From Roseicyclus sp. (GTDB taxonomy: Bacteria > Pseudomonadota > Alphaproteobacteria > Rhodobacterales > Rhodobacteraceae): a DNA stretch of 64,000 nt. The stretch spans positions 434,001 through 498,000 of the forward strand of contig NZ_JAGYJN010000001.1 of the NCBI RefSeq assembly GCF_018402035.1. Reading direction: 5' to 3'. How positions within the stretch are numbered: the stretch's first letter is position 1; each line of letters begins with the position of its first letter. This document shows positions 7,640 through 11,372 of the stretch, in pieces. The notes under the pieces were generated by a model, which was not told where the DNA came from, did not search any database, and saw nothing but the letters and a program-made list of their open reading frames with translations. The translations under genes were made by a program, and so were the position numbers.

Positions 7640-8311
7640 TTAGGCGCGCTTGGACAATGTCGGCCAGCCGAAAAGTTCGCTGATGCGCGGATGCCCGGTC
7701 AAGATCTTGCTCCGGCTGCGATGCGCGCTCACGCTGCGGGCCGAGGTCAAGAAATGCCGCCGCCCCGAGATCACGCGCGATGCGCGCGGCTTGTCGCTCA
7801 GCAGCTTGCCGGGCCAAAACAGCCGCGACATCGGCCCCCTGCCCTTGAGCAGGTTATCGGGTGCCTCGCGGCGGCGGGTAACAGTGGGCCAGCCCAAAGT
7901 ATGGGTCGCGCGCCACTCGGCCCAGCCGGAACCCGCGTAATCCTCGCGTGTCATCATCATCGGATGGCTGGTCAGCACACTGTTGAGATGCTGCTCAAGC
8001 TTTGGCTCTTGGCGGATATAGCTGTTATCAGCGGCCAGCGCCGTGGCGCTATCGGCAACCTCCATCGCACGGCGCGCCGCGCCAAAGGGCGTAAAGGGCG
8101 CGCGGCACACCAGCACCGCTTGGCCGGCCTGTATTTGGCGCACATAGTTGCTTGCGACGCCTGCTGGCACGCCGGCGGCGGTCATGGCGGCAAGATCGGC
8201 GCTTGTCACGACCGCAATGGTTTGTTCCGGAAAACCGTCGCTGCGCAATTGCGCGGCCACGCGGTTGGCGGTGTCGACCTGATCATAAAGCCGTGAGACG
8301 ACTGTCGTCAT
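7640..8311 (-). CDS. Fourth gene of the puc operon, unknown function, GSP17M/YflT-like N-domain
   Basis: 223 residues, not recognised as a named protein. Residues 1-95 (VVSRLYDQVDTANRVAAQL, then an acidic strand and VPAGVASNYVRQIQAGQAVL) resemble the general-stress YflT/GSP17M fold. The C-terminal 110 residues are rich in Arg, Ser and Trp and repeat short motifs: LTSHP/LTGHP and GWPTVTRR/GWPTLSKR. No signal peptide or membrane span is evident. The start overlaps the end of pucC by 29 nt and has AGGAG upstream, so it is translated with the antenna genes. It occupies the place of pucD/pucE in other puc operons, but identity with them is not shown. A role in LH2 assembly or stability is inference. 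Confidence 0.75.
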   Translation of the reverse strand: MTTVVSRLYDQVDTANRVAAQLRSDGFPEQTIAVVTSADLAAMTAAGVPAGVASNYVRQIQAGQAVLVCRAPFTPFGAARRAMEVADSATALAADNSYIRQEPKLEQHLNSVLTSHPMMMTREDYAGSGWAEWRATHTLGWPTVTRRREAPDNLLKGRGPMSRLFWPGKLLSDKPRASRVISGRRHFLTSARSVSAHRSRSKILTGHPRISELFGWPTLSKRA

Positions 8312-9794
8312 GGGGCTCTTCTCCTGTTGGCCGCCTGTCGCGCGGCTGGGGGTCAGTAAAGGCGGCGGGCCGTTCCGGTCGTCCCAACGCGCGATGATAG
8401 TGCTTGGTCTGGAAAAGTCCCGCCTCGCGGCGGCGCAAAGCGATCAAAACCGCACCCGTGGCCAACAAAAATGCCAACTCAAGGGCGAAAACCGGGGTAT
8501 AGGGTGCCTCTGGGCGCATGAATTGCGCCGCGGGCAACGCCGCGACCGTGTCACGGATCACGCCGCCAAGTGCGACCGCGATCCCCGCCGCCGTTGCCTG
8601 CACAGCGCCCCAAGCGCCGAGCGCAAGCCCCACCTGTGCGCGCGGTGCAGCCCGCATCGTGGCCGTCAGCGTGCCATGCCCGAACAGCCCCGCCCCAAGG
8701 CCCGCAAGCCCGGTGCCCATAACAAACAGCGACACCATCCCCAAAGGCCCCGCCGCGATGATCATCGCGAAAGCGGGCAAACCGATCAGCGTGCCCCACC
8801 ATGCGACTTGCACAGGTGCTACCCCGTCCAGCAACACGCGTGAGGCGATGGCAAAACCCAATAGCCCGCCTGCCGCCAGCACCGCGGTCAACCGCGTGGT
8901 CGCACCGACCGCCATATTCAGCACTTGCCCGCCATAGGGCTCGAGCACGACATCGGCCATGCCGAAACCCATGGTGCCAAGCGCGATCACGACCAAAAGC
9001 CCCACCGCCGCGCGGCCCTGCACGAACAGGCGCCATGCATCGCGAAACTCGGGCTGTGTTTCGACGCGGGTAGCACGCGCGCGGTCGCGCGGCTCTTGCT
9101 TCCAAAGTGCTAGCAGGTTCAGCGCCACGGTGATCACGGCGGCCCCTTGCACCACTTGGATCAAGCGGCCCGGCGTATAGGGTTCAAGCAGCCAGCCAAA
9201 GATCAGCGCCGATCCGATCATGCCCAACAAAAGCATGACATACATCAGCCCCACGACCTTGGGTTGCTCGTCGACGCTGACGAGATCGGTGGCCAAGGCC
9301 AGCCCCACGGTCTGAACGGTATGGATCCCCGCCCCCACCAGCAAAAACGCCAAGGCCGCCGCAGAATGGCCGATCCAGATCGGCGCATCGGCTGCCTGAT
9401 CATAGCCCGACAGCACCAAGAGCGCGAAGGGCATGATGGCAAAGCCACCAAATTGCAGCATCGTCCCCTTCCAGATGTAGGGAACACGCCGCCAGCCAAG
9501 CGCGGATTTATGAATATCGGATTTATACCCAATCAGCGCGCGAAACGGTGCAAAGACCAGCGGCAGCGCGATCATCAGCCCCACCAAGCTGGCAGGCACG
9601 CCCAGCTCTACGATCATCACGCGGTTCAGCGTGCCGACCAAAAGCACCAGCGCCATGCCGACAGTCACTTGGAACAGCGACAAACGCAACAGCCGCGACA
9701 GCGGCACCGCCTCGGTCGCGACATCCGCAAAGGGCAGAAATCGCGGGCCGATGGTCTGGATCTTGCGCAGCGCGCTATCGCGTAAACTGGCCAT
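8283..9794 (-). CDS. pucC: PucC, light-harvesting complex assembly protein (MFS/LhaA family)
   Basis: About 503 residues with some 12 hydrophobic segments; inner-membrane protein of the bacteriochlorophyll delivery (BCD)/PucC branch of the major facilitator superfamily, required for LH2 accumulation. Typical sequence includes FAPFRALIGYKSDIHKSALG and RRVPYIWKGTMLQFGGFA. ATG at 9794 was chosen because AAGG lies 8 nt upstream; the track start at 9818 adds eight residues. It follows pucBA on the same strand after a structured spacer and overlaps the next gene. The C-terminal tail after about residue 465 is polar and poorly conserved. Confidence 0.93.
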   Translation of the reverse strand: MASLRDSALRKIQTIGPRFLPFADVATEAVPLSRLLRLSLFQVTVGMALVLLVGTLNRVMIVELGVPASLVGLMIALPLVFAPFRALIGYKSDIHKSALGWRRVPYIWKGTMLQFGGFAIMPFALLVLSGYDQAADAPIWIGHSAAALAFLLVGAGIHTVQTVGLALATDLVSVDEQPKVVGLMYVMLLLGMIGSALIFGWLLEPYTPGRLIQVVQGAAVITVALNLLALWKQEPRDRARATRVETQPEFRDAWRLFVQGRAAVGLLVVIALGTMGFGMADVVLEPYGGQVLNMAVGATTRLTAVLAAGGLLGFAIASRVLLDGVAPVQVAWWGTLIGLPAFAMIIAAGPLGMVSLFVMGTGLAGLGAGLFGHGTLTATMRAAPRAQVGLALGAWGAVQATAAGIAVALGGVIRDTVAALPAAQFMRPEAPYTPVFALELAFLLATGAVLIALRRREAGLFQTKHYHRALGRPERPAAFTDPQPRDRRPTGEEPHDDSRLTAL

Positions 9795-9839
9795 CTTATC
9801 CGCCTTCTTTCCGCCCATTGACCGGGGGCAGGCCGGGAT

Positions 9840-9908: not shown

Positions 9909-10244
9909 TTACCGCAAGGCGGCTTGGGTCAGATCGTCAACTACCAGTGTTGCCGTGCGCCCATCGGGCAAAATCACCCGCATGGATTGGGTGCCATCGG
10001 CCTGTGCTTCCAGATACATGGGAAGCGAGGTCGCCGCATGTGCCGTTGCGGGCAAAATCGCCTGCTCGGTCTGCAACGCCGCGCTGCCGCTTGCAGCGGA
10101 TGCGCCAGAGAGGAAATCGGCAACCCATGTCGTATTGCTCAACACCGCCACATGGACAGCGAAAGAGCCCACGGCAACAGCGCCAAGGAACAGCGGCACG
10201 CCCACGGTCGGCTTCACCACGAGCCACATCTTTGCGTTATTCAT
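9909..10244 (-). CDS. pucA: LH2 antenna alpha subunit PucA with long C-terminal extension
   Basis: 111 residues against 50-60 for usual LH2 alpha chains. Residues 1-47 align without gaps to R. sphaeroides Puc[15 protein letters not shown], one membrane helix, His31 as bacteriochlorophyll ligand, then TTW. Positions 44-45, Tyr-Tyr in R. sphaeroides B850, are Phe-Leu (ADFLSG), the pair found in blue-shifted B800-820 LH3 complexes. After residue ~54 comes an Ala-rich linker and a segment [20 protein letters not shown] that looks like a small beta unit on the periplasmic face. The ATG has GGGAGG 7 nt upstream; pucB ends 12 nt before. The gene call is certain; the spectral prediction is inference. 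Confidence 0.95.
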
Positions 10245-10256
10245 GATGTGCCTCCC

Positions 10257-10412
10257 TCAGCCAAGCCACGGTGTGGAGACGGCCACCAACACATGCGCCA
10301 AAAGCGCAATCGCGCCGAAGACACGTGTGCCGTCGATGAGGTAGCTATGCACCTCTTCTGCTTCTTTCAGGGTCAGGCCAGTTGGCCATACCTTATCGGG
10401 ATCGTTGGACAT
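10257..10412 (-). CDS. pucB: LH2 antenna beta subunit PucB
   Basis: 51 residues, below the ORF-track cut-off and read by hand. It matches LH2 beta chains: KVWPTGLTLKEAEEVHSYLI, then GTRVFGAIALLAHVLVAVST and the ending PWLG. His in EEVHSY and the central His in LLAHVL are the conserved positions; the latter ligates the B850-type bacteriochlorophyll. Single membrane helix, cytoplasmic N-terminus. AAAGGAGG lies 8 nt upstream of the ATG, consistent with high expression. First gene of the puc operon; pairs with PucA encoded 12 nt downstream. Confidence 0.97.
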   Translation of the reverse strand: MSNDPDKVWPTGLTLKEAEEVHSYLIDGTRVFGAIALLAHVLVAVSTPWLG

Positions 10413-10509: not shown

Positions 10510-10527
10510 TGTCATGCTAAGTTTACA
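10510..10527. promoter_or_regulatory. PpsR/CrtJ operator, puc-proximal
   Basis: TGTCATGCTAAGTTTACA fits TGT-N12-ACA exactly, the operator for the aerobic photosynthesis repressor PpsR/CrtJ. It is 97 nt upstream of the pucB start codon. Confidence 0.75.
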
Positions 10528-10535
10528 ACTTCAAC

Positions 10536-10553
10536 TGTAATTTTTACGTGACA
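10536..10553. promoter_or_regulatory. PpsR/CrtJ operator, puc-distal
   Basis: TGTAATTTTTACGTGACA is a second exact TGT-N12-ACA, separated by 8 nt from the first. Tandem, closely spaced sites are what PpsR/CrtJ needs for cooperative repression under oxygen. Confidence 0.75.
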
Positions 10554-10742: not shown

Positions 10743-11372
10743 ATGTCGATTGCGCAAACCGTCTATGCGGCATTCATCGATGGCTTGCGCATTGGCACCT
10801 ACCTGCCCGGTGATCGCATCCGCGCCGAAGATGTGGCCAAAACCTTCGACGTCTCGCGCACCCCAGTGCGCGAGGCGCTGTCACGGCTGCAAGAGCGTGG
10901 GCTATTGCAGATGACCGCCACGGGCCTTGCGGTGACGCAGCTTGACCGCACCGCCGTGCTCGAGCTTTACGCCGTGCGCGAATTGATGGAGGGGTCAGCG
11001 GCGCGCTTTGCCGCCCAGCATGCCTCGCCCTCGGATCTGTTCACCATGCGCCAGATCGCCGAAGCCTTTGCCGCCACCCCCGCCGATGATCCGGCCCGCG
11101 TGGCGCAGCTCAACCGCGCCTTTCATGCTGCGCTCTATGAGGCGGCGCATAACAAATTCCTGCTCACCATCCTTGATGGGATGCATGACACGCTGATGCT
11201 GTTGCCCTCGACCACCTTTGCCGTGGGCGGGCGGCAAGGCGACGCGGTGGGCGAGCATCTGGCCATTCTGGATGCCATCGAGCGCCGCGATCCGGACGCG
11301 GCCGAAGATCACGCGCGCAGCCATATCCGCCATGCCCGCGACACGCGGCTGGGGATGATGTTTCAATATTGA
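10743..11372 (+). CDS. GntR-family transcriptional regulator (FCD/FadR type)
   Basis: 209 residues. An N-terminal winged helix (LPGDRIRAEDVAKTFDVSRTPVREALSRL) is followed by an all-alpha FCD ligand-binding domain with the metal/effector histidines (NRAFHAALYEAAHN, GEHLAILDAI, ARSHIRHAR). ATG 10743 has GGAAAG upstream; the track extension adds basic non-conserved sequence. It precedes convergent and downstream genes for a 2-oxoacid dehydrogenase and an aldolase, so it probably controls a sugar-acid or aromatic-acid route. It is divergent from puc only by position; there is no evidence that it controls photosynthesis. Confidence 0.88.
   Translation: MSIAQTVYAAFIDGLRIGTYLPGDRIRAEDVAKTFDVSRTPVREALSRLQERGLLQMTATGLAVTQLDRTAVLELYAVRELMEGSAARFAAQHASPSDLFTMRQIAEAFAATPADDPARVAQLNRAFHAALYEAAHNKFLLTILDGMHDTLMLLPSTTFAVGGRQGDAVGEHLAILDAIERRDPDAAEDHARSHIRHARDTRLGMMFQY

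Follow-up and report, generated by a model that had tools for sequence, protein, structure and literature searches.

Organisation of the puc operon

The window analysed here is a stretch of 64,000 nucleotides from Roseicyclus sp., in which pucA lies on the minus strand at 9909..10244 and encodes an LH2 alpha chain of 111 amino acids, comprising a core (residues 1-47), a linker (48-85) and a conserved tail (86-111). The original prediction had placed a PucA reading frame here without naming a strand, and both the translation and a Pfam LHC match (PF00556, E 3.6e-13, above the cut-off) bear it out on the minus strand. Upstream, pucB (10257..10412, minus strand) encodes the 51-residue LH2 beta chain, while downstream pucC (8283..9818, minus strand) encodes the LH2 assembly factor (PUCC, MFS fold). 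The end of pucC is overlapped by a gene of 223 amino acids (7640..8311, minus strand) that has no confident Pfam or NCBIfam match. Because 62 of 80 related loci have a homologue directly behind pucC in the same orientation, this reading frame seems to be a conserved fourth gene of the operon. The window organism is an aerobic anoxygenic phototroph of the Roseicyclus group, its operon consisting of pucBAC plus this conserved fourth gene. The window protein has the marks of an LH2 alpha chain, namely the PF00556 match, the conserved histidine of the transmembrane helix and a place in a pucBA(C) operon. PucB itself (10257-10412) exceeds the cut-off of NCBIfam NF040862, the LH1-beta (pufB) equivalog, with 64.5 against 61 bits, a match that may lead automatic annotation to label it as LH1.

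Two TGT-N12-ACA palindromes lie upstream of pucB: a PpsR/CrtJ-type box at 10510..10527 and a second palindrome at 10536..10553, 26 bp from the first. At least two such boxes precede pucB in 97 of 120 loci, where mononucleotide shuffles give an expectation of 0.48. Their match to the consensus makes PpsR the putative binding protein. A GntR/FCD regulator gene (10744-11372, plus strand) is divergent to puc; of the 80 related loci, only L040 and L041, both near relatives, gave a match to it.

Four chains of the LHC family score above the cut-off in the genome, corresponding to one pucBA and one pufBA pair, the latter adjoining pufLMC. The search for a further pucBA that the original prediction had proposed returned none in this assembly, whose completeness of 92% makes a second puc copy unlikely. 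The congeners agree with this result: among 13 genomes of the genus, 11 carry the same four chains, a fragmentary one carries two and one carries none. Wherever both operons were recovered from a sampled congener, there is one pucBA and one pufBA.

Residues at the pigment sites of PucA

The alignment of window PucA with the LH2 alpha chain of R. sphaeroides (7pbw) obtained with phmmer is gapless over residues 1-47, as originally predicted. Both chains share His31 and Ser27. The former (codon 10152..10154, minus strand) aligns with the invariant LH2 alpha histidine, is invariant in our alignment A1 and corresponds to the magnesium ligand of B850. Ser27 (codon 10164..10166, minus strand) is likewise invariant in this alignment; in R. 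sphaeroides LH2 this residue bonds the 13-1 keto group of beta-B850 (PMC9618040).

The two proteins differ at positions 44 and 45 (10110..10115, minus strand), where the window encodes Phe44 (TTC, 10113-10115) and Leu45 (CTC, 10110-10112) in place of the Tyr-Tyr pair of 7pbw and of the R. sphaeroides-type gene in locus L143. This substitution, on which the original prediction was built, is correct. Both tyrosines of R. sphaeroides bond 3-acetyl groups of B850 pigments, whereas Phe44 and Leu45 are non-donors (role of the positions from PMC9618040). The third position, Val41 (codon 10122..10124, minus strand), lacks the Tyr41 donor that Rbl. acidophilus 7050 retains in its 820-nm LH3, so that residues 41, 44 and 45 of window PucA are all non-donors.

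These residues can be set against the known classes of antenna. B800-850 complexes have two 3-acetyl donors (Tyr44 with Tyr or Trp at 45, or equivalents), and window PucA has Phe44-Leu45 beside a canonical beta chain. LH3 complexes have Phe44, together with Leu45 in strain 7050, and the window protein shares this pair; strain 7050 additionally forms a 3-acetyl hydrogen bond from Tyr41, in contrast to Val41 here. The LH4-type combination of F44-L45 with an exclusive peripheral antenna is present, within an assembly that is 92% complete.

Predicted spectral class of the antenna

A comparison of nine LH2 structures links the number of 3-acetyl hydrogen bonds to the position of the band: two bonds give approximately 850 nm, one gives approximately 825 nm and none gives approximately 803 nm (PMC9618040). 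In the LH3 of Rbl. acidophilus 7050 a single bond remains, from alpha-Tyr41 to alpha-B850, and the band lies at approximately 820 nm; the PucD-LH2 of Rps. palustris has no such bond and a single band at 803 nm (PMC9618040). Applied to the window residues, the rule predicts that these bonds are absent, since Val41, Phe44 and Leu45 would offer no donors where solved close relatives hydrogen-bond the B850 3-acetyl groups. Without them, the site energies of the coupled B850 pigments would go up, and the 850-nm band would move to approximately 803-806 nm, where it would fuse with the B800 band.

The closest known proteins point in the same direction. The best PDB match of window PucA is the PucD-LH2 chain 7ze3, which likewise has V41, F44 and a non-donor at position 45, although this is Met45 instead of Leu45, its host has several puc pairs, and the chain carries no long C-terminal extension. 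Among named genomes, that of Roseicyclus mahoneyensis DSM 16097 has the most similar PucA (84% over 111 amino acids); closer still are the PucAs of the MAG casp40-mb.90 (98%) and of LSUCC0031 (92%). Over alpha residues 1-47, R. mahoneyensis and the window are identical at 46 of 47 positions, the sole difference being residue 36, and their PucB chains share 50 of 51 residues. For R. mahoneyensis, a band at 806 nm, an LH1 at 870 nm and no 820 band are listed in a 2025 review that also names F44L45 as the motif of single-band antennas in five aerobic species (PMC12654162). The link between F44L45 and a single band near 800 nm is already published and is thus known in its general form.

That the window LH2 lacks both 3-acetyl hydrogen-bond donors, is blue-shifted and has no normal 850-nm band is well supported. 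Going further, with Val41, Phe44 and Leu45 all non-donors, the sole puc operon very probably encodes a single-band LH2 of the LH4 ('high-800') type, absorbing at approximately 803-806 nm beside an LH1 near 870 nm. We favour the single-band class over LH3 because Val41 is shared with PucD-LH2, the best PDB match, whereas LH3 has Tyr41. Its closest known counterparts would be the LH4 antennas of R. mahoneyensis, Roseobacter denitrificans, R. litoralis and Dinoroseobacter shibae, which also combine F44-L45 with a sole peripheral antenna; the spectrum of the window antenna is predicted from sequence, and its PucA linker diverges.

The original prediction had assigned the complex to the B800-820 (LH3) class, with two bands at approximately 800 and 820-830 nm. 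Its premises are accurate: Phe44-Leu45 is the pair of the B800-820 chain 1ijd (...WYAAFLQGG...), and the Y44F/Y45L mutant of R. sphaeroides, which keeps Ser27 as in the window, absorbs at 826 nm (PMC9618040). The mutant value also counts against the reading of approximately 805 nm: given that the window too has Ser27, residues 27, 44 and 45 are not sufficient to predict a band at 806 nm. The LH3 of strain 7050, however, relies on Tyr41 bonded to alpha-B850, where the window has Val41. In addition, the near-identical R. mahoneyensis is listed with its band at 806 nm and none at 820 nm, and F44L45 is common to single-band aerobic species (PMC12654162). We therefore consider an LH3-like complex improbable, and the class named in the original prediction to be probably wrong, while its blue shift, its missing normal 850-nm band and its mention of aerobic phototrophs with an 806-nm antenna all stand.

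The single band at approximately 805 nm is probably what the window organism displays, judging from the hydrogen-bond rule and the spectrum of R. mahoneyensis. A further point against this reading is Roseicyclus elongatum, comparable by spectrum alone, which is listed at 802 nm with an 850-nm shoulder (PMC12654162); a second source gives 800 and 879 nm only for this species.

The LH4-type complex would be the only peripheral antenna that the cells express, with PpsR-type control. A cell with LH1 only, in which puc is scarcely expressed, is a prospect that we rate as low: several aerobic phototrophs are tabulated without a peripheral band (PMC12654162) and the pair of PpsR-type boxes could hold puc repressed, but purifying selection on the pucA core is very strong (dN/dS 0.015) and expression is described as constitutive in the named LH4 species (PMC12654162). 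An ordinary B800-850 complex, in which other donors such as the beta chain or a nearby polar residue replace the missing bonds, as beta-Trp donors do in Phs. molischianum and Mch. purpuratum (PMC9618040), is scarcely credible given a canonical beta chain nearly identical to that of the 806-nm R. mahoneyensis and a surveyed literature in which none of the species with F44-L45 had a clear 850-nm band.

The C-terminal extension of PucA

Past about residue 54-59, window PucA continues into a long extension that is missing from the solved LH2 alpha chains matched by it, that of R. sphaeroides included. The tail proper, residues 86-111 (9912..9989, minus strand), begins where the variable linker ends. 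Among seven close sequences, dN/dS is 0.31 for linker residues 48-85 and 0.089 for residues 86-111, beside the value of 0.015 for the core; the difference between tail and linker indicates that the tail is maintained by selection. Across 54 sequences, Asp94 and Gly95 do not vary. An AlphaFold2 model of the extension (mean pLDDT 63.6) predicts a disordered linker and three short beta strands of low confidence (blocks of approximately 52-67). A search of the genome for the tail returned no second locus.

Other PucAs of the sample end differently. Those of L140, L144 and L145 are of the R. sphaeroides type, with total lengths of 263-326 amino acids and very long extensions whose apparent richness in Ala and Pro sets them apart from the PDG tail. 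Two frames appear to be broken, by a stop after 66 amino acids in L130 and by a split across two frames in L137; sequencing errors are possible in both.

Val41 and the F44-L45 pair across PucA sequences

The alignment with further PucA sequences that the original prediction had suggested shows that F44-L45 is not a chance feature of the window, since 98 of 123 distinct PucAs carry it, and all 98 have Val41. The sample combines 80 loci from a similarity-ranked list, hence biased to relatives of the query, with 397 genomes of the family that were chosen independently of PucA. The single-contig congener G372 also has an F44-L45 PucA.

We mapped the F44-L45 state on a tree of PucB, PucA residues 1-24 and PucC (117 rows), built by a quick method and with many weak branches. 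The state needs 11 changes on this tree, eight of them forced by the starred branches. Of nine independent pairs taken on starred branches, about seven show Val41 changing in step with Phe44 and none shows the reverse (median p 0.016); the same test for Leu45 gives 4.3 (p 0.125). Because these tests were chosen after the pattern was known and several positions were examined, the tracking of Phe44 and the F44-L45 state by Val41 is suggestive only.

The opposite state occurs within the genus itself. Three of the 12 congeners with a puc match (L045, L047 and L050) have Y41-Y44-V45 and a two-residue insertion in PucA. Their divergence from the window is concentrated in codons 25-50 of pucA (10095..10172, minus strand), with 38-42% identity, and the flanks are similar: 87-91% for pucB, 81-88% for PucA residues 1-24, 76-85% for the tail and 74-81% for pucC. 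When 395 genomes of the order were searched for a donor of this segment, close matches came from inside the genus only. PufA and other PucAs were considered as its source and none was closely alike; a compensated frameshift was unsupported when the other frames were read by eye. The segment may have arisen by recombination or by fast divergence.

Taken globally, the distribution leads to the hypothesis that LH2 colour in this lineage toggles repeatedly as a unit, with residues 41 and 44 shifting jointly between the no-donor state V41-F44-L45 (approximately 805 nm) and the donor state Y41-Y44 (toward 820-850 nm), and that in Roseicyclus the pigment-facing codons 25-50 were exchanged or diverged with the remaining operon left in place. 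We hold this view tentatively, at somewhat under an even chance.

Considered alone, the window antenna would be one more single-band LH2 of approximately 805 nm, and its value lies in comparison. The natural combination of Ser27, Phe44 and Leu45 in R. mahoneyensis is reported at 806 nm and the identical combination in the R. sphaeroides mutant at 826 nm, so something besides positions 27, 44 and 45 must explain this difference of 20 nm. Val41, given how strictly it is paired with Phe44-Leu45, is a candidate for the missing shift, and the congeners that carry Y41-Y44-V45 in an otherwise similar operon provide a natural test of the gap.
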